DNA from: Clostridium sp. MSJ-8
Lineage (GTDB): Bacteria; Bacillota; Clostridia; Clostridiales; Clostridiaceae
Reading direction: 5' to 3'
Length of the DNA stretch: 64,000 bases
Assembly: GCF_018918325.1 (NCBI RefSeq)
Contig: NZ_JAHLQH010000012.1
Location: 62,001 to 126,000, forward strand
The notes beneath the pieces were generated by a model. It saw only the letters and a program-made list of their open reading frames with translations. It had not been told where the DNA came from and did not search any database. Within the stretch, counting starts at the first letter, position 1. Each line of letters opens with the position of its first letter. Positions 24,428 to 37,903 of this stretch are shown in pieces. A program made the position numbers and the translations under genes.

Positions 24428-24472
24428 ATAAAAGTATAGAAAAGTATAAAAGAAAGGTTAGGAGTGGACAAT

Positions 24473-27400
24473 ATGAATAAGGTTAAGAAAAAGATATTAG
24501 CTATAATTGTAGCAATAGCTGTTGCTATAGGGCTATTTCCTATAAAAGCACAAGCAGAAGAAGGTGGAGTTCAATATGAAACAATTGATATAGATAATTC
24601 TTCTTTAAATGGAAATGCAATATGGGGAGCAAGTGAAGAATTTAATAATGATGTAACTTTAGATCATTATGCAGCATTTTATGCTTCTAGTTCAGATAGA
24701 AATGGTGGTATAGGTGGGTTACCTATAGATGGTAAGTTACAAGTAGATGGTAAACAAGTTAGTAATGTTCCTTATAAGTTAGCTGCAGGAGACAATGAAT
24801 CAACAGCTTATGATGGTAATGACTGTATTTGGTTATATTCAGGCAATGAATCTGTTACTATGAATTTACAAACAATAGGAGCTTATGAAAAGATTTATGT
24901 GTTAGCTACAGCAGGTGGCCCAGGCGAAAAAAATTATGCTAAGTTTAATGTTACCTTAAATTATACAGAGGGTAAACCTAGTGAAACTACTTATCAACTT
25001 TACGATTGGTATGATATGAGTTCAGTTGACGGAGTTGAACAATATCCTTCAGTTATGAGAATAGAAAATTCAAATGGAGAATATACTGGAAGTATAGGAG
25101 CAGGACCAATACTTCAATCTGCAACAATAGATGTTGATAAAACAAGGTTATTAAAATCTATTACATTTAATTTGCAAGGGTTAAATAATGGAAATACAAT
25201 CCCAGACAATTTATATTGTGGTGTATTTGCTGTAACTGGTGCAACTCCTTCAGGTGCACCTGATAAGCCAGTTGCAACAGCAGCAACTGATGTTAATAGA
25301 AATACACCATGTTTTACAGCAAACTGGAAAGCTGTTGAGGGTGCTACTAGTTATTGCTTAGATGTAGCAACTGATAGAAACTTCACAAAAATTTTAGGAT
25401 CTTATAATAATACAAATGTTGGTAATGTTACAAGTTATGAAATAAATTCAGAAATTAGTGCAGATACTACTTATTATTATCGTGTACGTGCTATAAATGA
25501 TAAAGGACAAAGTTTAAGTTCAAATCGTATTGCTACAGGTTTACCAGAATGGGCAAGAAGTGCAGGGTTAACTGAAGAAGAAGCAGAATATAATCCAGAA
25601 ACTGGAGCATTAATAGTTAATAAAGATGCTACGCTTACAGGCCCTATCAATATTCCAACTGGTGAAAGCACTATAATAAGCATAAATAATAATAGCGTAA
25701 TAACAGCAGCTCAAGGACAACCAGCAATAAAGGGAAGTGGTTCAGATATTGAACTTTCAATAACTGGATCAGGAAGTATAAAAGGTAGTGATGGTACAAA
25801 TGGTAGTGATGGAACTCCAGCTATAGATTTAAGTGAAGCAAGTGGTACGCTAGAAATATCTGGTAATACAAAAATTTCTGGTGGAGCAGGAGGAAATGCT
25901 CAAGGTGACAATGGAAATGGTGGAAATGGTGCTGATGCCATTAAGGGTGGCACTAAGCTAAATATACAGGTATCAGGTGATTCTACTAATACAGAAATTA
26001 AAGGTGGAAACGGTGGAGCAGCAACTGGAAATGGAACTGGTGGAAATGGTGGCTCTGGAATAAATGGTAATAATATAAATGCACAAGGTGGAAGTAATAT
26101 ATCAGGAGGAACAGGCGGAAGTTCTGAGAGTGGAACTGCAGGACAACAAGGTGAATCAATAGAAGGTTATATATCGGGTAGTATTGAAATAAATGGTAAA
26201 GGTGTATACAATGAAACTTTAACAGTAAATACATCAGGAATTACAAATGCATCAGGAGAAATATCATATAGATGGAAGAGAAATGGAGAATATATAGATG
26301 GAGCTAATGGAATTAGTTATACATTAACTGATAATGACATTGGAGCAATTATAAGTTGTGAGGTTACTTGCTCAGACAAAAAGGGCAGTCTTGAACAGAG
26401 ATTTGAAGGTGTAATAGAAAAAGAAACAGTTGCAAAACCATCAGGCATAACAGTTGATCAAAACGGAGATATAACAGGAGTTACTTCTGAAATGGAATAT
26501 AGTACAACTCCAGATTTTAGTGATGCAATACCATGTTATGGAACAGAAATAACAGGATTAGAATCTGGAACTTACTATATTAGAATAAAGGAAACAGATA
26601 CTACTAAAGCAAGTGAATATGTTAGTGTAACTGTTTCGAAGCCAGAACCAACATATTCAGTAACTGTAAAAAATGGATCAGGAAGTGGTAGTTATAAAGA
26701 AGGTGATATAGTTACTATTACTGCAGATTCTGCTCCAAAAGGAAAAGAATTTGATAGTTGGAGTGTAATAAGTGGAGGAGTGGTTTTGGAAAAAAGTACT
26801 AGTTCTACAACAAAATTTATAATGCCTGCATCAAGTGTAGAAATACAAGCAAATTATAAAGACATTATAACACCAGAACCAACATATTCAGTAACTGTAA
26901 AAAATGGATCAGGAAGTGGTAGTTATAAAAAAGGCGATGTAGTTACTATTACTGCAGATTCTGCTCCAAAAGGAAAAGAATTTGATAGTTGGAGTGTAGT
27001 AAGTGGAAGAGTAGTTTTAGTAAAAAGTACTAGTTCTACAACAACATTTATAATGCCTGCATCAAATGTAGAGTTAAAAGCAATTTACAAGGATATTATA
27101 GTACCAGAGCCAACACCGGACCCAAGTCCAGAACCAACACCAGACCCAAGTCCAGAGCCAACACCGGACCCAAGTCCAGAGCCAACACCGGACCCAAGTC
27201 CAGAACCAACACCAGACCCAAGTCCAGAGCCAACACCGGATCCAAGTCCAGAACCAACACCAGACCCAAGTCCAAAGCCAACACCGGACAAACCAGATTC
27301 TGGAGATGGATCTGATTTAGGAGAAATAAAAAATGATACTAATCCTGACAATAACGAATATGGTGCCAATTTAGATAATAGTTCTTCAGAGTTAAAGGAC

Positions 27401-28054
27401 AAGCTATTAACTCCAGAAGAAAAAGATCGTATATCAAATGGTGAAAATGTAAGAGTTTATCTAGAAGTAGTTGATATTAAGGATAAAGTATCAAAAACAG
27501 ATAAAACATTAATAAATAAAAATATAGATAGTTCTATGCAGATAGGAACTTATTTAGATTTATCATTATTTAAGCAAGTAGGTGCAGATGAACCTAAAAA
27601 GATTACTAATACAAATGGTTCTGTAACAATAAGCTTCAAAGTACCAGAAAACTTAATTAATAATAGTTCTTCTATTAACAGAACATATAAGATAGTAAGA
27701 GTTCATGAAGGTGTTGTATCAATTTTAGATGCTACATTTGATCCAGAAACAGGAAATATTATATTCGAAACAGATGCATTTTCAACTTATGCACTTGTGT
27801 ATACAGATAATGTAAAAGCTGATGTTAAAGATGACAATAAAAATACTAATAAGGACAGTAATACTGGTACACCTATAGCTACTGTAGTAAGTGATAATAA
27901 AACTACATTAGAAAGTAATACACAATCTAATAAGTCTAATGGTATAAAAACAGGCGATACTAATGAAGTTGGAAGCTTATATGCTTTATGTGGAATTTCA
28001 ATGATGGTAATGTTAGTATATGTATATCGTAGAAAATTAAATAAAAACAAATAG
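24473..28054 (+). CDS. Large modular wall-anchored surface protein
   Basis: The 1193-residue protein has a signal peptide (1-29, ending QAEA-like before EEGG), then a beta-rich N-terminal domain (30-255) and one fibronectin type III domain (about 260-355). A Gly/Asn-rich low-complexity region (about 425-560) precedes an Ig-like domain (about 565-650). Two near-identical divergent InlB-type B-repeats (about 722-795 and 799-872) follow, then a PEPTPDPS tandem region, a domain at 955-1110 and a C-terminal sorting region: IKTGD, hydrophobic helix, basic YRRKLNKNK tail. The expected LP of LPxTG is missing. ATG at 24473 with TAGGAG is preferred over GTG at 24464. It likely serves adhesion, under control of the adjacent two-component system. 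Confidence 0.85.
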   Translation: MNKVKKKILAIIVAIAVAIGLFPIKAQAEEGGVQYETIDIDNSSLNGNAIWGASEEFNNDVTLDHYAAFYASSSDRNGGIGGLPIDGKLQVDGKQVSNVPYKLAAGDNESTAYDGNDCIWLYSGNESVTMNLQTIGAYEKIYVLATAGGPGEKNYAKFNVTLNYTEGKPSETTYQLYDWYDMSSVDGVEQYPSVMRIENSNGEYTGSIGAGPILQSATIDVDKTRLLKSITFNLQGLNNGNTIPDNLYCGVFAVTGATPSGAPDKPVATAATDVNRNTPCFTANWKAVEGATSYCLDVATDRNFTKILGSYNNTNVGNVTSYEINSEISADTTYYYRVRAINDKGQSLSSNRIATGLPEWARSAGLTEEEAEYNPETGALIVNKDATLTGPINIPTGESTIISINNNSVITAAQGQPAIKGSGSDIELSITGSGSIKGSDGTNGSDGTPAIDLSEASGTLEISGNTKISGGAGGNAQGDNGNGGNGADAIKGGTKLNIQVSGDSTNTEIKGGNGGAATGNGTGGNGGSGINGNNINAQGGSNISGGTGGSSESGTAGQQGESIEGYISGSIEINGKGVYNETLTVNTSGITNASGEISYRWKRNGEYIDGANGISYTLTDNDIGAIISCEVTCSDKKGSLEQRFEGVIEKETVAKPSGITVDQNGDITGVTSEMEYSTTPDFSDAIPCYGTEITGLESGTYYIRIKETDTTKASEYVSVTVSKPEPTYSVTVKNGSGSGSYKEGDIVTITADSAPKGKEFDSWSVISGGVVLEKSTSSTTKFIMPASSVEIQANYKDIITPEPTYSVTVKNGSGSGSYKKGDVVTITADSAPKGKEFDSWSVVSGRVVLVKSTSSTTTFIMPASNVELKAIYKDIIVPEPTPDPSPEPTPDPSPEPTPDPSPEPTPDPSPEPTPDPSPEPTPDPSPEPTPDPSPKPTPDKPDSGDGSDLGEIKNDTNPDNNEYGANLDNSSSELKDKLLTPEEKDRISNGENVRVYLEVVDIKDKVSKTDKTLINKNIDSSMQIGTYLDLSLFKQVGADEPKKITNTNGSVTISFKVPENLINNSSSINRTYKIVRVHEGVVSILDATFDPETGNIIFETDAFSTYALVYTDNVKADVKDDNKNTNKDSNTGTPIATVVSDNKTTLESNTQSNKSNGIKTGDTNEVGSLYALCGISMMVMLVYVYRRKLNKNK
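26642..27103 (+). repeat. Internal 231-bp tandem duplication
   Basis: Two adjacent copies with a 231-base offset encode the InlB-type repeats (each begins with EPTYSVTVKNGSGSG). DNA identity is high, so the duplication is recent or kept similar by recombination. Confidence 0.8.
27109..27291 (+). repeat. 24-bp tandem repeats encoding PEPTPDPS
   Basis: Seven consecutive 24-bp units encode PEPTPDPS and a diverged unit (PKPTPDKP) ends the array. It forms an extended Pro-rich wall-spanning stalk. Base composition is much more GC-rich than the surroundings. Unit number should vary between strains by slippage. Confidence 0.9.
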
Positions 28055-28108: not shown

Positions 28109-28186
28109 ATTTCTGAAATCCTTGTTAAATTTTTGATATAGGTATAAAATTAAGAATGTCAAAATATGTTGAAAAGAGGGATAAAT

Positions 28187-28867
28187 GTGGAAGACAGTAA
28201 AGTATTATCTGAAGAATCTTCTCATTCTAGTATTAGAGGAGAAGTTGCATTATTAATAGCTGTTATTATTAATAGCTTAGGGGTGGTTTTAATGTTATAT
28301 TCTGGATCGGGAATATCTGCTATATCTAGTGTTCCGTATGCATTTTCAGAAGTATTTAAGAATATATCATTAGGAACATGGACCTATATATTTCAAGGTG
28401 TGTTAGTTATGACTCTAATGATTTTAAGAAAGAAATTTGTACCTGCATATCTTTTTAGTTTTGTGGTAGGTTTTATATTTGGAGAGATGTTAGATGTTCA
28501 TGAACTATGGATAAATGTTTTACCACATACTATTGCATGGCGTATAGTATATTTTATAATTAGTTATTTACTAATAAGTATAGGGATAGCTCTTTCAAAT
28601 AGATGTTGTTTACCTATTATACCAACAGATTTATTTCCACGTGAGTTATCTGATATATTTAATACAGCTTATTCTAAGATAAAGATTGCTTTTGATGTAA
28701 CATGCTTATTAATAACAGCAGGAATGACATTTATTATATTAGGACATTTAGATGGATTAGGAATAGGAACTATCTTGGCAGCTTTTACTATGGGTAAGAT
28801 GATAGGTATAATTGGAGATTGGATGGACAAGCATTATAAGTTTAAATCTTTTATGAGCAAGGAGTAA
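28187..28867 (+). CDS. YczE/YitT-like integral membrane protein
   Basis: The 226-residue protein has about five or six hydrophobic helices and the SLGVVL and GISAISSVPYA signatures of the YczE/YyaS family (NSLGVxxxxxSGxGxSPISSVPY). Function is not established; some members are suspected transporters. GTG at 28187 lies after AGAGGG and is preferred over ATG at 28166, which has no ribosome site. A related domain is fused to a kinase-like domain at 36626. The dehydrogenase gene follows 16 bases later. Confidence 0.7.
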   Translation: MEDSKVLSEESSHSSIRGEVALLIAVIINSLGVVLMLYSGSGISAISSVPYAFSEVFKNISLGTWTYIFQGVLVMTLMILRKKFVPAYLFSFVVGFIFGEMLDVHELWINVLPHTIAWRIVYFIISYLLISIGIALSNRCCLPIIPTDLFPRELSDIFNTAYSKIKIAFDVTCLLITAGMTFIILGHLDGLGIGTILAAFTMGKMIGIIGDWMDKHYKFKSFMSKE

Positions 28868-29843: not shown

Positions 29844-29954
29844 TATAAATAAAATATTAATTTATGAATAAAAAGAGAATAATATTTAAAAAAACAAAAA
29901 AAGATATATTAATATATAAAAATTACTGATATAATAATCAATAAATAATATGGA

Positions 29955-30082
29955 AAAACAGATTTAGTATAAAGGAATGTGGTGCAAGTCCACGCAGCCC
30001 CCGCTACTGTAAGTATGTTATAATACAAGTCAGATACTTTAGCTATTTCTGATACTGAATTCCTAGGTGGGAGGAATAGAAG
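29955..30082 (+). promoter_or_regulatory. Cobalamin riboswitch
   Basis: The B12-box core is clear: GGTGCAAGTCC (about 29981-29991), GCAGCCCCCGCTACTGTAAG (about 29994-30013) and the CAAGTCAGATAC block (about 30026-30037). A later CCTAGGTGGGAGG (about 30062-30074) fits the kissing-loop region. It controls the following ECF operon by premature termination when adenosylcobalamin is plentiful. Confidence 0.93.
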
Positions 30083-30102
30083 TATAGCTTTGATTGATAT
30101 AG

Positions 30103-30127
30103 AAGGCCCACGTGGGTCTTTTTTTAT
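30103..30127 (+). terminator. Riboswitch-controlled terminator
   Basis: AAGGCCC pairs with GGGTCTT around ACGT, followed by a long T run. It is the expression platform of the cobalamin riboswitch. Confidence 0.85.
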
Positions 30128-30177
30128 TCTTTAGAAAATTATATTTTGTTTATAGGTGCAAATAAGTATCTTAGAAG
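30121..30177 (+). repeat. Post-terminator repeat segment, copy 1
   Basis: TTTTATTCTTTAGAAAATTATA and the following AATAAGTATCTTAGA (about 57 bases in all) recur at 56095-56153 and 60711-60766, each time directly after a hairpin/T-run. Here it forms the leader just before the ECF T gene. Confidence 0.6.
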
Positions 30178-30196
30178 AGGAGGTTATTTTAGAAAG

Positions 30197-31042
30197 ATGT
30201 ATCATGTTCTATCTACATTATGTTTAATTATTTCTATGATGATAGTTACATTTTCTAGTGATAATCCTATGATAGTTCTATCAGCACTTATATGGAGTGT
30301 AGTGTTACTTGTTAGATATAAGGATTATAAGAAGCTTAAGTTAGGTATGCTACTTATGATACCTATGATTTTAGTTACAGGTATAGTAAATATTATTATA
30401 GTGAATGCGGGAAACATAACATTATTCACGATTTTTGGTAAGGCTGTAACTCTTGAGATATTAATGTATATATTGGTGTCTAGCATGAAGCTATTAGTAA
30501 TAATTTATTTGTTTAATATATTAAATAACTTATTAGATACTGATAAGGCTGTTTCTTATTTTAGTAAAAGATGTCCTAGAGTAACATTAATTGTACTTCT
30601 ATCTCTTAAGCTTATACCTAATATGAAGAAAAGAGTACAATCACTTAAGAATACATATATAATTCGAGGAAGTAATCTAGAAGCTTCATCTAAGAAGGAA
30701 AGTATTAAGGCATATGTTCCTATATTGTCTATATTACTAGAAGATTCTCTGGAAAAATCCTTTGATATAGGAGAGAGTGCATATGTTAGAGGATTTGGAA
30801 GTGGCAAGAGAAGTGAGTATGAGAAGAGTAAATTAGTATTTAGAGATTATGTAATTATATTCTATTTTATATTTATTGCAATTATGCACATTACCTTATG
30901 TGTTTTAGGAAAGATAACTTATGATATTTATGGAGGTAATGGTATATTTTCTTTTATAAATGTTTATTCTGTGTTAGAAGCGGCAATAATATTAATTAGT
31001 ATGTTACTAATGATTAGCAATGTAACAACTAAGAAAGGATGA
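30197..31042 (+). CDS. ecfT: ECF transporter transmembrane component T (CbiQ-like)
   Basis: The 281-residue membrane protein couples ATP hydrolysis to the S component. It has about five to six helices and the two coupling-helix signatures: around RGSNLEASS (first Ala-Arg-Gly-like motif) and ESAYVRGFGSGKR (second, usually AMxxRGF). ATG at 30197 is the first proper start. An AGGAGG lies 13 bases before it, which is rather far. A TTG at 30146 would lie within the riboswitch leader and has no ribosome site. The ATPase gene starts directly after the stop. Confidence 0.85.
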   Translation: MYHVLSTLCLIISMMIVTFSSDNPMIVLSALIWSVVLLVRYKDYKKLKLGMLLMIPMILVTGIVNIIIVNAGNITLFTIFGKAVTLEILMYILVSSMKLLVIIYLFNILNNLLDTDKAVSYFSKRCPRVTLIVLLSLKLIPNMKKRVQSLKNTYIIRGSNLEASSKKESIKAYVPILSILLEDSLEKSFDIGESAYVRGFGSGKRSEYEKSKLVFRDYVIIFYFIFIAIMHITLCVLGKITYDIYGGNGIFSFINVYSVLEAAIILISMLLMISNVTTKKG

Positions 31043-31046
31043 TTTG

Positions 31047-32648
31047 GTGGGATATATAGACATAGAGAATCTATCTTATAGCTATAGGATAGGATCTAAT
31101 AAGGTTTTAAATGATATTAACTTATCTATAGATAAGGGCGAGATAGTTCTGATTATGGGTGAGAGTGGTAGTGGCAAGTCATCTTTACTTAGAACGTTAA
31201 CTGGGGCTATTCCTCATTTTTATGGAGGAGAGATAAGTGGAAGAGTTTTGTACGAAGGTAAATCATTAAGTGACATGACTCAGCGAGAGAGAGCTAGTAA
31301 GGTAGCGATGGTATTTCAGTCACCTGAGAGGCAGATTATTATGGATAAGGTACATAAGGAAGTAGCTTTTTCATTAGAGAATATAGCAGTACCAGAGAAT
31401 ACTATAAGAAGAAGAGTATTTGAAGCATTACAGTTCTTGAAGCTATTACCTTATGCGTATAAGGATATAGACAATTTATCTGGTGGTGAGAAGCAGAAGG
31501 TAGTGCTTGCATCAGTTTTAGCTATGAAGACAGATGTAATAATATTAGATGAACCAACTTCTCAGTTAGATCCTCAGAGTAGTGAAGAATTTATTAATTT
31601 ACTTAAGAAGATTAATCAAGAATTAGGTAAAACTATAATAATTGTTGAACAAAAAGTTGATTACATATATGATATAGCGGATAAAATAATACTTTTGAAG
31701 GAAGGAAAGGTTGATTTTATTGGCACTAGACAGGAATTATATAAGAGAAACGATGCAAGGTTCTTGCCTATGTATCTTAAGATAGCTAGACAGTTTCATT
31801 TTACAGATATAAGAGATATAAGAGATATGAGAAGACAATTAGAGATATACCTACAAGATAAGAGAAGAATATCTAATGAATCTAGTAATATTGATATTGA
31901 AGAAAAAGTTATCTTAGATATACATAATATGAATGTTAGGATAGAAAACAAGGATATACTTAAAGATATTAACATTGAATTCTGTGAGGGAAAGATTTAT
32001 AGCATATTAGGTGAAAATGGTGCAGGTAAGAGTACTTTATTGAAGGCTATAATGAATTTGATAAGATATAATGGCACTATTAAACTTAGAGATAAGAAGT
32101 TATCTAAGATTAAATCTTCAGAAATAGCTCATTACATAGGATATGTCTCACAAAATCCTAATGATTATATATCTAAGGATACAGTATATGATGAAGTTAA
32201 GTTTACCTTAGATAACTTTGGAATAGACAATACAACACAAGTTGATGAAGTATTAAAAGAATTAGGAATAGATAACCTTAGAGATAAGAATCCAAGAGAT
32301 ATAAGTGAAGGAGAAAAGGAAAGAGTTGCTATAGCTAGTATTCTAGTTATGAATACGGATATTATACTATTAGATGAACCTAGCAAAGGACTTGATTATG
32401 AAAGTAAGAAGAAGCTTGGAGATATATTAAAGCATCTAAAGGAACAAGGCAGAACTATTATTATGGTTTCTCATGATATAGATTATGTAGCAGAGTATAG
32501 TGACAACATAATACTACTGCTAAATGGTGAGATAATAGACAAAGGTAAAACTCGAGATATATTAAGTGAAGGTATATATTACACATCAACTGTTAATAGG
32601 TTATATAGTGGTGCTTTTACACTTGAGGAGCTGAGTGAGTATGAGTAG
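31047..32648 (+). CDS. ECF transporter fused double ATPase (A1-A2)
   Basis: The 533-residue protein carries two ABC ATPase domains in one chain. Domain 1 has Walker A GESGSGKSSLL (about 34-44), signature LSGGEKQKV and Walker B VIILDEPTSQLDP. Domain 2 (from about 285) has GENGAGKSTLL, a variant signature ISEGEKERV with Glu in place of the first Gly, and IILLDEPSKGLD. The fusion of both ECF ATPases is common in clostridial vitamin transporters. GTG at 31047 has better spacing from AAAGGA than TTG at 31044. Confidence 0.9.
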   Translation: MGYIDIENLSYSYRIGSNKVLNDINLSIDKGEIVLIMGESGSGKSSLLRTLTGAIPHFYGGEISGRVLYEGKSLSDMTQRERASKVAMVFQSPERQIIMDKVHKEVAFSLENIAVPENTIRRRVFEALQFLKLLPYAYKDIDNLSGGEKQKVVLASVLAMKTDVIILDEPTSQLDPQSSEEFINLLKKINQELGKTIIIVEQKVDYIYDIADKIILLKEGKVDFIGTRQELYKRNDARFLPMYLKIARQFHFTDIRDIRDMRRQLEIYLQDKRRISNESSNIDIEEKVILDIHNMNVRIENKDILKDINIEFCEGKIYSILGENGAGKSTLLKAIMNLIRYNGTIKLRDKKLSKIKSSEIAHYIGYVSQNPNDYISKDTVYDEVKFTLDNFGIDNTTQVDEVLKELGIDNLRDKNPRDISEGEKERVAIASILVMNTDIILLDEPSKGLDYESKKKLGDILKHLKEQGRTIIMVSHDIDYVAEYSDNIILLLNGEIIDKGKTRDILSEGIYYTSTVNRLYSGAFTLEELSEYE

Positions 32649-33351
32649 ATACAGAAGATTTTTATATATAATAATTGTTTTAGTACCTCTATTATTACTT
32701 ATGATATTTTCAGGAGATATATCTAATAAGAGCTATTATTCCCTAATTATAACTGCATATATTATATTCTTATTGTTTATGGCTTATATGTACTTTGAAA
32801 AGAGTAAAAAAGGAGTTCAAGAGATAGCAGTAATAGCTACCTTGAGTTCAATATCTGCTATAGGTAGAGTTATATTTGCCCCTATACCTAATGTTCAACC
32901 ATCTACTTTTATTATACTGATATCTGGGCTAGTATTTGGATGGTATGATGGATTCCTTATAGGAGCAACAACAGCCTTTGTATCTAATATATTTTTAGGT
33001 CAAGGACCATGGACACCTTGGCAAATGATTGCATGGGGTATAATAGGTATAATTGGTGGACTTATGAAGAGGAAAAACAAGAAACCCAAGATTGAATATT
33101 TTACAATAATATCATTTGTGTGTGGTATATTGTTTGGATTCATAATGAATATGTGGCATGTTATTGGTTTTCTTAAGGATATAAGTAAAGAAGCAATTTT
33201 ATTAACTTATCTTAATAGTGTATATTATGATGTGTTACATGGTGTGGGAAATGTAATTTTCTCATTAGTATTTTATGAAAGTTTTTATAAGATTTTAAAT
33301 AGATTTTATGCAAGAACTTACTTTAAAGAAGATAATATAAAGGAGAGATAA
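32641..33351 (+). CDS. ECF transporter substrate-binding S component, probable cobalamin type
   Basis: The 236-residue membrane protein has about six to seven helices. Its central block IPNVQPSTFIILISGLVFG and GQGPWTPWQMIAWG is characteristic of S components that sit with cobalamin-regulated ECF genes. The riboswitch upstream and the DUF4430 proteins downstream support a cobalamin or corrinoid substrate. ATG at 32641 follows GAGGAG by 10 bases; a GTG at 32635 is the alternative. The gene overlaps the ATPase gene. Confidence 0.8.
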   Translation: MSRYRRFLYIIIVLVPLLLLMIFSGDISNKSYYSLIITAYIIFLLFMAYMYFEKSKKGVQEIAVIATLSSISAIGRVIFAPIPNVQPSTFIILISGLVFGWYDGFLIGATTAFVSNIFLGQGPWTPWQMIAWGIIGIIGGLMKRKNKKPKIEYFTIISFVCGILFGFIMNMWHVIGFLKDISKEAILLTYLNSVYYDVLHGVGNVIFSLVFYESFYKILNRFYARTYFKEDNIKER

Positions 33352-33353
33352 GG

Positions 33354-35228
33354 ATGGAAAAAAGAATAACTAAAAAAGTTATATCAATTTTAACAATACT
33401 TGTTATGCTACTTGGAATTATGCCTACAAAACCAACATTAGCAAGTGATGTTATGTCAGTTTATGTAAGAGTGGAAGGTGTAAATAGTACTATTGCAGAA
33501 GGTGAAAGTTCAGGTGCAACTGTATATGAAGCATTAACTAATCTTCTAGATAAAAAATCAATTGATTATGTATTAACACAAGGTGCGTATGGTCCATATA
33601 TATCTAGTATAGCAGGATTAACAGAAGCTAGCTTTGGTGGTTATGATGGCTGGATGTATGTTATTAAGAATGGTAGTGTCATAAGTGATTCTATGGATTT
33701 ACAAGATGGATGTGAAGTAACATTTTATTATGGAGCTTATGGTACAACTTATTCACCTAATTCTATAAAGTTTGATCCAGAAGTACCTAAAGCTAATGAA
33801 GAATTTACATTAACAGTTGCTAATTCATCACTTGATTGGACTACTAATCAAGAAGTAGTAACACCATTAAGTGATATTATAGTATCTATTGATGGTCAAA
33901 AATATCTTACTGATGACAAAGGACAGATAAAATTATCTTTAGATAATGGAACACATACTTATGAATTTGTAGATAATAATGATGCAAATACTATTCCAAC
34001 TGTTGTAAAATCAAAAGGAACATTTGTTACAGATGGTGTAAATAAGCCTCAAATTCTATATAGCGATAAAAATTACGACAATACTAATAAAGATAATATA
34101 AGTACTGATTTAGATGAATACATTAAAAACACAACTTCATATATGGTAAGTAACAAAGTTAGCCAATGGGGTGCATATTCACTATACAAACAATCTACTA
34201 AAGCTACTGAAGGATTCCTAGATTCACTAAAAGAAAATATAAGCTATGGTGTTAGTGATATGAGTGGAACAGAATTAGAAAGTGCTATTATAGGCTTAGC
34301 TTCATTAGGATATTCTCCATATAATTTTGAAGGAGTAGATTTAGTAAGTGAGTTATATAATAGAGATATTAATAAGTTCGTGAACAATGAAGCGATATTT
34401 GCTCTTTTAGTATACAGAGCAGTAAACCTACAAGGTGATTACAAGATAACTGAAGCTGATATGGTAAACAAGATATTAGATGGATATGACAACGGTGGAT
34501 GGTCTTGGAATGGAGTTGGTTCAGATCCTGATATGACAGGAGCAGCTATAAATGCATTAGCTCCATATTATAATGGCAAAACTTTAGATGGAGTAGATAA
34601 TACAGAAATAAAGAATAAAGTTAATGGTTCAGTAGAATTATTAAAAAATGCACAATTAGAAGATGGTAATATAGGTGGTACTTATGGAGCATCTAGTGAA
34701 ACTAATGCTTTTGTAATATTAGGACTTGTATCTATAGGAATAGATCCAAATGGTACAGAATTTACTAAGGATAATGGAAGCTTATTAACTGCATTATTAT
34801 CTTATAGCGGAGATAATGGAGCATTTAATCATAATGATTCACTTAAGAATAATATGTATGCTACTGAAAATGTATATAGAGCATTAATAGCATTAAAAGA
34901 TTTCTATAATAACGGTGTGGCTGATTATTATACTTCAAACCTTAAGTTAACTAAAGACGAAGATAATTCTTCTGATATAGATGATTCTAATAAAGATAAT
35001 TCAAATGATAATTCTGGTGTAAACAATAGTATTACATCAAACAATGATAAGAACAATCAAGGAAATTCTACCTTAAGTGGAGATAATAAGACTGCGGTAG
35101 CATCTCAAAATAAAACAGGTGATAATAATAATATGTATATTTTATTACTTATATGTACAACAGCTGTAGTTATAATGGCTAATGCAATAGGCAATAAAAG
35201 AGAAGGATTAAATAATGAAGCTAAATAA
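33354..35228 (+). CDS. Wall-anchored DUF4430 / prenyltransferase-like protein, putative corrinoid-capture protein
   Basis: The 624-residue protein has a signal peptide (1-31) and a DUF4430 domain (about 35-125, with GGYDGWMYVIKNG and DGCEVTFYYG). A beta linker domain (130-225) follows, then alpha/alpha repeats of the prenyltransferase/squalene-cyclase type (about 255-530, with GGWSWNGVGSDPDMTGAAI and ETNAFVILGLVSIGID). The end has a low-complexity Asn/Asp/Ser linker and NKTGD, a hydrophobic helix and a short basic tail. Animal intrinsic factor and transcobalamin consist of the same two folds, and the operon is B12-regulated. Surface corrinoid binding is therefore a strong inference. AAGGAGAGATAAGG precedes the ATG. 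Confidence 0.82.
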   Translation: MEKRITKKVISILTILVMLLGIMPTKPTLASDVMSVYVRVEGVNSTIAEGESSGATVYEALTNLLDKKSIDYVLTQGAYGPYISSIAGLTEASFGGYDGWMYVIKNGSVISDSMDLQDGCEVTFYYGAYGTTYSPNSIKFDPEVPKANEEFTLTVANSSLDWTTNQEVVTPLSDIIVSIDGQKYLTDDKGQIKLSLDNGTHTYEFVDNNDANTIPTVVKSKGTFVTDGVNKPQILYSDKNYDNTNKDNISTDLDEYIKNTTSYMVSNKVSQWGAYSLYKQSTKATEGFLDSLKENISYGVSDMSGTELESAIIGLASLGYSPYNFEGVDLVSELYNRDINKFVNNEAIFALLVYRAVNLQGDYKITEADMVNKILDGYDNGGWSWNGVGSDPDMTGAAINALAPYYNGKTLDGVDNTEIKNKVNGSVELLKNAQLEDGNIGGTYGASSETNAFVILGLVSIGIDPNGTEFTKDNGSLLTALLSYSGDNGAFNHNDSLKNNMYATENVYRALIALKDFYNNGVADYYTSNLKLTKDEDNSSDIDDSNKDNSNDNSGVNNSITSNNDKNNQGNSTLSGDNKTAVASQNKTGDNNNMYILLLICTTAVVIMANAIGNKREGLNNEAK

Positions 35229-35982
35229 GAAAAAGTTAATTATTTTAATAGGTGTATTAATAGTTTCTGCAAGCTTAATTTATGGAGCTAATTATTTAAG
35301 AGCTTCTATAACTAATAGTTCTAATAATAAAGTAGCCTCTAATGTTGATGATAATGAGAAAAGTAAAGCAGAAATCAAAGATAGCAAAAACAAAGATAAT
35401 AAGGAATCTGTAGAAAAAAAGGAGAATACCGAAGATTCTTCAACGGAAAGTAGTAACCCTAAAGAAAATTCTACAGAAAATAGTAACACTAATGACAAGC
35501 ATAAAGCTAGTAGTAATACAGAGAATAATTCATCAGTTAATATAAACCAAAATCAAAATTCTACTTCTAGTAATGATAACAATAATAAAAACACAGAAAC
35601 AAAGAATGAAGATAAAAATGTAAATACTGTTGAGCCAAGCATTGCACCAGTTGAAGAAAAAAAGAGTCCTGCTATAAGTATGCAGATAATAGATGAAGCA
35701 AGTAATTCTTTTGCTCCAAAGAATTACACACTAGAATTTACAAAAGGGGAATCATTTAATGATATAATGAAAAGATTCTTACCTAAGTATGCTACAGACT
35801 ATAAGATGATAGATGGATATTTATCTAAGCTTTTTGGATTAAAAGAAAGAGATGCTGGTATAAACAGTGGATGGATATTCTATGTTAATGGTGTTAAAAG
35901 TCCAGTAGGAATGAAGGACACATACTTGAATGATGGAGATAGTGTTATTTGGAAGTATGTAGTAGATGGAGTTAATAATTAA
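35215..35982 (+). CDS. Membrane-anchored DUF4430 protein
   Basis: The 255-residue protein has an N-terminal membrane helix (about 7-28, no lipobox and no clear cleavage site), a long low-complexity spacer rich in Asn, Ser, Lys and Glu (30-150), and one DUF4430 domain (about 155-253). The domain contains GESFNDIMKRF, INSGWIFYVNGVKSP and NDGDSVIWKYV. The start overlaps the previous stop by 14 bases. The spacer would hold the domain away from the membrane. It may hand the ligand from the wall protein to the ECF S component; this is inferred from order and shared domain. Confidence 0.82.
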   Translation: MKLNKKKLIILIGVLIVSASLIYGANYLRASITNSSNNKVASNVDDNEKSKAEIKDSKNKDNKESVEKKENTEDSSTESSNPKENSTENSNTNDKHKASSNTENNSSVNINQNQNSTSSNDNNNKNTETKNEDKNVNTVEPSIAPVEEKKSPAISMQIIDEASNSFAPKNYTLEFTKGESFNDIMKRFLPKYATDYKMIDGYLSKLFGLKERDAGINSGWIFYVNGVKSPVGMKDTYLNDGDSVIWKYVVDGVNN

Positions 35983-36625: not shown

Positions 36626-37903
36626 ATGGAAAAACTTAAGAGGTATATAATTTTTGCAATTGGATTATTTATAAATTCTTTAGGAGTTAGTTTTATAACT
36701 AAAGCTAATTTAGGAACATCACCTATATCATCAGTTCCTTATGTACTTAGTTTGAATTTTCCTCTTACATTAGGAAATTTCACAATTTTATTTAGCTTAT
36801 TATTAATAGCATTACAATTAGTTATTTTAAGAAAGAACTTCAAACTAGAGCATGTTTTACAGATACCAATATCAATTGTGTTTGGATATTTTATTGATCT
36901 TACAATGATTTTATTGCAATCTGTAGATCCTAAGTCATATATTATGAAGATTATATTTTTGTTAATTGGATGTATTATATTAGGCTTTGGAGTTTATCTT
37001 GAAGTATTAGCCGATGTAGCTATGCTTCCAGGAGAGTCATTTGTAAGAGCTGTATCATCTACATGGAATACAGAATTTGGTGTTACCAAGATATGCTTTG
37101 ATGTATCTATAACAGTACTTGCTGTAATTATATCATTTGTTTTATCTCATAAGTTAAATGGTGTTAGAGAAGGAACAATTATAGCAGCACTTTTAGTTGG
37201 TTTTATAGCTAGAAACTTCCAGAGATTCTTGAAACCATTAGAGAATGTAGTGTTTCCTGATAATAAAGGTACTGCAACAGACCAAATAACTGAATCAACT
37301 TATAAAAAACCAGTAATAGTAATAGGTAGACAATATGGTAGTGGTGGATATGAGATAGGCAAATATTTAGCAAAAAAATTAAATCTTGAGTTCTATGATT
37401 ATGACATAATAAAAATGACAGCAGGAACAACTGGAATGTCTACTGAATATATAGAGAAGCGAGAAGAAAAGATGACTAATAGCTTTATATTTGATTTGGT
37501 CAATCAAGTATATGCATATACTCCAGGTAAGGAAGCACCTAAGGATAAGATATTTGAAGCTGAGTCAAAGGTAGTTAGAGAATTAGCTGAGAAGGGAAAT
37601 TGTGTTATAATAGGACGTTGCTCAGATTATGTATTAAGAGATGAAAAGAATGTAATAAGTTTATTTTTACATGCGTCTCTAGAAGATAGAATTTCTAGAG
37701 TTATAAAAAGGGAAGGACTTTCCGAAAAGGATGCCAAAGAAAAGATTCATAAAATGGATAAATTAAGAGCAGATAATTATCATTATTATACTCATAGATT
37801 TTGGGGCTATTCAGGTAATTATGATTTGTCTATTGATACAAGTATAGGAGAAGAAGTGATTGAAGAAATTATAAAGAAAATACTACCTAATTTAAATCAT
37901 TAA
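36626..37903 (+). CDS. YczE-like membrane domain fused to cytidylate-kinase-like domain
   Basis: The 425-residue protein has two parts. Residues 1-205 are a six-helix YczE/YitT-like domain with INSLGVSFITKANLG and TSPISSVPYVL. Residues 225-425 are a cytidylate-kinase-like P-loop domain: VIGRQYGSGGYEIG (about 233-246, a GR(Q)xGSGG variant of Walker A), VIIGRCSDYVL, DRISRVIKREG and the LID-like KLRADNYHYYTHRFWG. The kinase domain would face the cytosol. Its substrate is unknown, since true CMP kinase is a separate housekeeping gene. The MarR gene upstream suggests induction by a small molecule. Confidence 0.8.
   Translation: MEKLKRYIIFAIGLFINSLGVSFITKANLGTSPISSVPYVLSLNFPLTLGNFTILFSLLLIALQLVILRKNFKLEHVLQIPISIVFGYFIDLTMILLQSVDPKSYIMKIIFLLIGCIILGFGVYLEVLADVAMLPGESFVRAVSSTWNTEFGVTKICFDVSITVLAVIISFVLSHKLNGVREGTIIAALLVGFIARNFQRFLKPLENVVFPDNKGTATDQITESTYKKPVIVIGRQYGSGGYEIGKYLAKKLNLEFYDYDIIKMTAGTTGMSTEYIEKREEKMTNSFIFDLVNQVYAYTPGKEAPKDKIFEAESKVVRELAEKGNCVIIGRCSDYVLRDEKNVISLFLHASLEDRISRVIKREGLSEKDAKEKIHKMDKLRADNYHYYTHRFWGYSGNYDLSIDTSIGEEVIEEIIKKILPNLNH

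Follow-up and report, generated by a model that had tools for sequence, protein, structure and literature searches.

The closest described relatives of the system treated here belong to the transcobalamin-like clade of SLBB proteins that Burroughs et al. (2007; PMC1796856) described from low-GC Gram-positive bacteria. In the parts of that paper compared here, SLBB domains are fused to toroids in either order (examples come from Desulfotomaculum and Bacillus), several members – not all – carry Gram-positive anchor motifs, and operons unite the genes with those for CbiO, CbiQ and a second SLBB protein, in hosts that mostly lack key enzymes of B12 synthesis; B12 scavenging, and transfer of the proteins to animals, were proposed. 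Here we consider an operon of this kind at positions 29929-35982 of a 64,000-nucleotide stretch of the genome of Clostridium sp. MSJ-8 (contig NZ_JAHLQH010000012.1, positions 62,001 to 126,000; the whole stretch is called the window). A cobalamin riboswitch and a terminator-like hairpin are followed by five tightly packed plus-strand genes: in order, those for the energy-coupling factor (ECF) membrane protein EcfT, a fused EcfA-A' ATPase, an S component assigned to the CbrT (B12) type, and two DUF4430 proteins, D1 and D2. It is likely, in our judgement, that the operon is repressed by B12 and serves corrinoid uptake in a clostridium that requires B12.

Judged by the same parts of the 2007 paper, the likeness extends to proteins and operons alike: a beta-grasp domain of the transcobalamin clade (DUF4430), toroid fusion and predicted secretion are common to both, as are CbiO/CbiQ partners, a second SLBB protein and the predicted scavenging of B12, and a Gram-positive anchor is putative in D1. 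Those parts name neither a riboswitch nor a CbrT-type S component, both of which were tested for the window. A further precedent, PMC9963975, contains the annotation 'additional lipoprotein component of putative cobalamin ECF transporter' and the Lactobacillus DUF4430 gene LGG_02295, tied by annotation to the neighbouring rtpR gene. As in the window, an extra surface component is there linked to a cobalamin ECF transporter, but the link is a proteome annotation only, and a toroid protein is absent from the parts of the paper compared. Because the core finding is a published prediction, given in the 2007 work and in this annotation, the idea itself is not new: the window operon is a well-supported further example of what was predicted in 2007, to which the present work adds statistics on the riboswitch, an assignment of the S component to CbrT, matches in structure and one more instance.

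Searches of open PMC papers – a scope outside which subscription papers fall – listed, as judged by title and abstract, no B12-binding experiment on a bacterial DUF4430-toroid protein. Wexler and colleagues are said to have described, in 2018, surface lipoproteins of Bacteroides that capture B12, and the likeness to the window lies in surface capture supplying a dedicated importer; the Bacteroides system belongs to the outer membrane and to a different protein family.

Riboswitch and transporter genes

The riboswitch aptamer (29929-30060, plus strand) matches RF00174 at 39.5 bits (E 1.7e-6) against a gathering score of 31.5; it is the sole match above a gathering score in the window in an Rfam search, and the RF00174 match is unique at E <= 0.001 across the whole genome. 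In the alignment 6 bases stand in for 62 model positions. A large peripheral extension of the aptamer is a feature of class I, the long form; since those 62 positions are reduced to 6 bases the element is not filed with the long class, and the alignment suggests a compact, class II-like form. Given this compact form the preferred cobalamin of the riboswitch may differ, on class features that are in part general background. The aptamer measures 132 bases, as against 172 to 191 bases in 14 other riboswitch sequences chosen for comparison; in the closest orthologous locus (L035) the corresponding region yielded merely a short partial RF00174 match.

Downstream lies the likely expression platform. 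A hairpin at 30059-30077 (plus strand), presumably the counterpart of P13, was read from the letters, and its pairing is predicted. Its loop, GTGGG (30067-30071), is complementary both to CCCGC within the aptamer (30000-30004), with one G-U pair, and to CCCAC (30107-30111) in an arm of an intrinsic-terminator-like hairpin that carries a T run (30101-30122, plus strand). One such terminator was found, the mean for shuffled sequences being 0.0; the 89-base stretch around it shows a modest gain in stability (z -1.70), with 11 of 200 shuffles as good. These complementarities suggest a switch: with cobalamin bound, the loop at 30067-30071 would be trapped in the aptamer, so that the terminator could form and shut the operon off; in the unliganded state the same loop would pair with the terminator arm and transcription would continue.

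The five genes, which overlap or almost abut, run as EcfT (30197-31042), EcfA-A' (31044-32648), the S component (32635-33351), D1 (33354-35228) and D2 (35215-35982), all on the plus strand. EcfT, a membrane protein of the EcfT/CbiQ family, matches PF02361 (E 8.4e-7) when read from ATG 30197; read from the mechanically assigned TTG start at 30146 it has no CbiQ match at E 0.1, and the alignment with its L035 ortholog starts at the residue corresponding to ATG 30197. The ATPase contains two ABC_tran stretches and matches TIGR04520 and TIGR04521 above cut-off. The S component matches two ECF S families above cut-off, and its best match in the PDB is chain A of 6FNP (E 1.3e-13); with a profile of 10 S components 6FNP scores E 1.2e-21, and no other PDB entry matches at 0.001. 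The traits of a CbrT-type ECF cobalamin transporter – an S component homologous to CbrT, EcfT and two ATPase domains – are present, and on this assignment ATP-driven corrinoid transport is predicted. In the parts of PMC5997447 compared here, 6FNP is the ECF-CbrT of Lactobacillus delbrueckii, which moves cobalamin and cobinamide in proteoliposomes. The S-component family is common to both systems; the L. delbrueckii cbrT gene sits in nrdJ-cbrS-cbrT-pduO, unlike the S gene of the window, which shares one operon with dedicated T and A-A genes and with the genes for two surface proteins.

The host genome has two B12-binding-domain genes above cut-off, of which the first is MetH-like and the second is akin to B12-dependent radical SAM enzymes (neither reaches the cut-offs of the full-length models), and has no match to CbiC in a search that, as a control, matched 7 of 14 well-known genomes. 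By this single synthesis marker, the picture fits a predicted B12 user dependent on import. The initial annotation had placed a cobalamin riboswitch before genes for ECF T, fused A-A and S components and had read the whole as corrinoid uptake: the Rfam, Pfam, TIGR and 6FNP matches bear out the gene calls, and the riboswitch, the CbrT-type S component and the state of the host speak for the uptake.

In a second cluster of the same genome (L053; contig C35:1-19900), two T/AA pairs and an S component are accompanied by a DUF4430 protein of 351 aa and a toroid protein of 877 aa, the latter matching DUF4430 in part; the cluster gave no RF00174 match. Its S component carries the motif IPQFKP, differing from the CbrT-like S. 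At a locus with the same type of S component in another genome (L047, genome G012), cobalamin riboswitches adjoin.

The surface proteins and the cobalamin-carrier fold

D1 is a predicted exported protein of 624 aa, putatively anchored to the cell wall. A signal-peptide-like N terminus (33354-33446, recognised by eye) precedes a DUF4430 or transcobalamin-beta-like domain (residues 38-128; 33465-33737), delimited by an iterative hidden Markov model (HMM) and supported by Foldseek. A middle beta-strand domain, placed by predicted secondary structure with approximate boundaries (about residues 131-226; 33744-34031), lies between DUF4430 and an alpha/alpha toroid (residues 260-530; 34131-34943; predicted fold and profile), and a linker joins the toroid to a C-terminal anchor (35106-35225) made of QNKTGD, a hydrophobic stretch and a charged tail, a non-canonical sorting signal. 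D2 has an N-terminal membrane anchor, seen by eye, a low-complexity linker and a C-terminal DUF4430 domain (PF14478, E 1.2e-12; residues 160-249, 35692-35961, by iterative HMM). All of these features are on the plus strand.

The sequence of D1 alone gives no Pfam DUF4430 match, and a single-sequence PDB search with it returned one chance-level match; D2 alone has no PDB match at E 1. Since single-sequence searches are too weak for D1, profiles and structure models were needed, the profiles being built from 54 DUF4430 stretches, out of 74 listed, and from 42 toroid stretches, out of 65. Pfam DUF4430 is matched by 14 of 21 aligned D1-type proteins, window D1 not among them. Two DUF4430 proteins had been named in the initial annotation, together with prenyltransferase-like alpha/alpha repeats and a wall-sorting tail in the larger one. 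The former hold, D2 by Pfam and D1 by its aligned relatives and predicted structure, and the repeats are recovered by predicted fold and profile; of the tail, the hydrophobic stretch and the charged end stand, and the motif is not the canonical one. An [LNS]PxTG motif occurs in 11 of 19 D1-type proteins, a set that includes window D1, itself without it, and the host genome has two sortase genes above cut-off. Wall anchoring of D1 itself is putative.

A 1196-aa surface protein at 24464-28054, which contains InlB B-repeat-like domains as well as proline-rich EPTPDPSP repeats, has IKTGD and a hydrophobic tail at its end, resembling the QNKTGD end of D1; the two motifs are perhaps a local variant of the sorting signal.

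The resemblance to transcobalamin and intrinsic factor that had been noted for the surface protein reappears in the structure models. The top PDB match of the D1 model (Foldseek) is 5no0, the human transcobalamin beta domain (E 8.8e-5; TM 0.67 by target length). For a bacterial relative with the domain order of the animal proteins (L093), the 15 best Foldseek matches are chains of transcobalamin, haptocorrin and intrinsic factor (E 1.4e-9 to 2.4e-6, the next fold following at 7.5e-4), with alignments that cover 303 to 331 residues across both domains; 3u7z, a DUF4430-like protein annotated as putative metal-binding, stands at rank 42 among the structural matches. A DUF4430 domain seated over the toroid is a hypothetical geometry. 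At the level of sequence families, PF01122 (Cobalamin_bind) is matched by one of the 21 D1-type proteins (E 3.4e-5), and window D1 has no match to it.

An alpha/alpha toroid and a beta-grasp domain of DUF4430 type are common to D1 and to the animal transcobalamin, haptocorrin and intrinsic factor. D1 differs in placing the beta domain first, in having an extra beta-strand domain before the toroid, and in being predicted to be surface-anchored, whereas the animal carriers are soluble. The reversal of domain order, also part of the initial annotation, is confirmed in D1. In a tree of toroids (80 rows) the 20 proteins with DUF4430 before the toroid (D-t), window D1 included, form one supported group (98/92), separate from the main group of 24 rows with the opposite order (t-D), and the D-t label requires three changes overall.

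Distribution in other genomes

Among 196 sampled genomes of the class, 86 have DUF4430; 43 of these 86 were searched for a cobalamin riboswitch, and 39 have a match. The list of DUF4430 matches was cut at the weak end, which left three of the 43 genomes without a listed match. Of the 82 listed matches, 44 have an RF00174 match no more than 5 kb away, a number that rises to 55 at 10 kb and to 58 at 15 kb; uniform placement predicts 0.8, 1.5 and 2.3. Both strands were pooled in this count, and several matches may be domains of one protein, so the safer unit is the genome: DUF4430 lies within 10 kb of a riboswitch in 31 of the 40 genomes with listed matches. Three riboswitch rows are below the RF00174 cut-off, and one of these three underlies two of the 55 matches, both from genome G058; without it the counts become 53 of 82 matches and 30 of 40 genomes. 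Chance association of DUF4430 with the riboswitch was set aside, 55 matches being observed at 10 kb against 1.5 expected.

A scan of contigs with D1 alone found no relative. A scan with an S-component profile, seeded with 10 of the 15 aligned S components, supplied 80 named loci, the best of 346. DUF4430 is present in 73 of them, a toroid in 69 and both in 66; in a sequence-only search 54 have a riboswitch on the same strand, anywhere on the fetched stretch and in a few cases only downstream of S. In the seven loci without DUF4430 a contig end falls within the operon or at its border and forms the start of the locus, so that the domain may be present but cut off there. DUF4430 and the toroid are found fused in either order, and also as separate adjoining genes: the 80 loci contain 32 fusions in the order toroid-DUF4430, 20 in the order DUF4430-toroid and 3 of other form, beside 86 DUF4430 genes without a detected toroid and 47 toroid genes without a detected DUF4430. 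Within the genus of the window the two-domain D1 type is patchy and rare: a near full-length D1 match is found in 2 of 68 genomes, its own included, and any D1 match at E 1e-20 in 12 of 68, the others covering the toroid part.

Some loci call for separate comment. Five of them (L099, L104, L112, L116 and L130) come from metagenome-assembled genomes labelled as archaeal (Aciduliprofundum, DHVE2) and contain operons of DUF4430, T, AA and S genes, which may reflect transfer or binning error. L105, from Lutibacter sp. B2 and labelled Bacteroidota, clusters with Thermotaleaceae in the toroid tree and is possibly a mislabelled assembly. In L042 (genome G053, contig C1:14000-33000) the orthologous operon is split by stop codons or frame changes; the genome is a single contig of 74% completeness, and the breakage is likely the result of sequencing errors. 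In the window itself the operon is flanked by two membrane proteins, a DUF6198 protein at 28166-28867 and a longer one at 36626-37903 that appears, by eye, to join a DUF6198-type protein to a cytidylate-kinase-like domain.

Readings of the operon

We propose that low cellular cobalamin would lead the riboswitch to permit readthrough of the terminator, and that the five genes would then be made. The exported and probably wall-bound D1 and the membrane-tethered D2 would serve as surface corrinoid-binding proteins of the transcobalamin kind, and the corrinoid would lie between the DUF4430 beta-grasp domain and the alpha/alpha toroid. The two proteins would concentrate it near the CbrT-type S component, which together with EcfT and EcfA-A' would import it at the expense of ATP, for enzymes such as MetH. 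The elements on which the proposal draws – riboswitch, transporter type, domain content, fold resemblance, operon conservation and the missing CbiC match – are sequence- or prediction-based.

Ligand binding by D1 and D2, the sandwich, the hand-off, the switching mechanism and the wall anchoring of D1 are elements that we infer. A number of points weigh against this interpretation. The comparison of the D1 model with intrinsic factor, to which the initial annotation had pointed, came out divided: the transcobalamin beta domain is its top match, and by VIA-align Z terpene cyclases score higher than intrinsic factor. For L093, terpene cyclases aligned on the toroid alone (Z 18.5-18.9) tie with the carriers (17.9-19.0), and the two-domain superposition on the carriers has an rmsd of 6.9-8.2 A; the models themselves have a pTM of 0.60 (D1) and 0.68. 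The toroid profile finds terpene cyclases and no cobalamin carrier among the 60 of 79 PDB matches listed, and a toroid profile from proteins of natural order gives the same result in 59 PDB matches. PF01122 is no commoner among D1-type proteins than squalene cyclase, prenyltransferase or GH127 (1 of 21 each), and the families listed for 15 proteins of natural order do not include it. A D2 profile reaches transcobalamin-2 weakly (E 0.13), ranked below three chains of an unrelated protein, and the tail of D1 carries QNKTGD and no LPXTG. The corrin-synthesis check turns on a single marker, CbiC. Finally, 26 of the 80 S-component loci gave no riboswitch in the sequence-only search, and the sample is biased toward operons of this type because its seed S components were taken from D1-containing loci.

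How far do these points favour other explanations? The fold results bear most directly on D1, which could be a co-regulated surface binder of a glycan, a host protein or something else, its toroid a generic scaffold, with the ECF transporter alone importing B12. Terpene cyclases, prenyltransferases, sugar epimerases and complement thioester domains are matched by toroid models and profiles at least as well as cobalamin carriers are, and reconstituted ECF-CbrT transported B12, according to the parts of PMC5997447 compared; we consider this explanation quite unlikely. An adhesin-only reading of D1 was also considered and set aside. It is extremely unlikely that the operon encodes a cobalt importer of the CbiMNQO type under a cobalamin riboswitch, with DUF4430 proteins that bind metal. 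EcfT is indeed filed as CbiQ (cobalt transport), a C. difficile cobalt importer is under a cobalamin riboswitch in the part of PMC11477304 compared here, the S component has a sub-threshold match to CbiM (E 0.08), and the putative metal-binding 3u7z appears among the L093 matches. The match of the S component to CbrT is significant, however, and that to CbiM is not; moreover, there would be little point in placing cobalt import under the control of B12 without corrin synthesis, for which no CbiC match was found, and on these grounds cobalt import was set aside.

The identity of the corrinoid is a different matter. A preference for incomplete corrinoids such as cobinamide, or for cobamides other than B12, is a possibility that we entertain tentatively: ECF-CbrT takes cobinamide and several cobalamins (parts of PMC5997447), and a missing CbiC match is compatible with lower-ligand attachment or remodelling, but the present results do not tell corrinoids apart. 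Within the corrinoid uptake reading that we prefer, a variant of the sandwich can also be imagined in trans, the toroid of wall-bound D1 holding the corrinoid and the DUF4430 domain of D2 replacing D1's own DUF4430 lid and delivering the ligand to the S component. We regard this as unlikely. Were it so, the separate toroid and DUF4430 genes of sister lineages would represent this machine before or without fusion, and the D-t order in the Clostridiaceae group of the window would be a fusion distinct from the t-D order in Syntrophomonas and Moorella.

The operon is compact, and its control by B12 is open to direct testing. If binding by the surface proteins is borne out, Gram-positive bacteria would possess a system for capturing B12 at the surface whose build resembles that of human intrinsic factor, and the 2007 proposal that animals got their carriers of B12 from bacteria of this sort would gain support. 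The system would, in addition, illustrate how surface proteins can feed a substrate-binding S component in the membrane.

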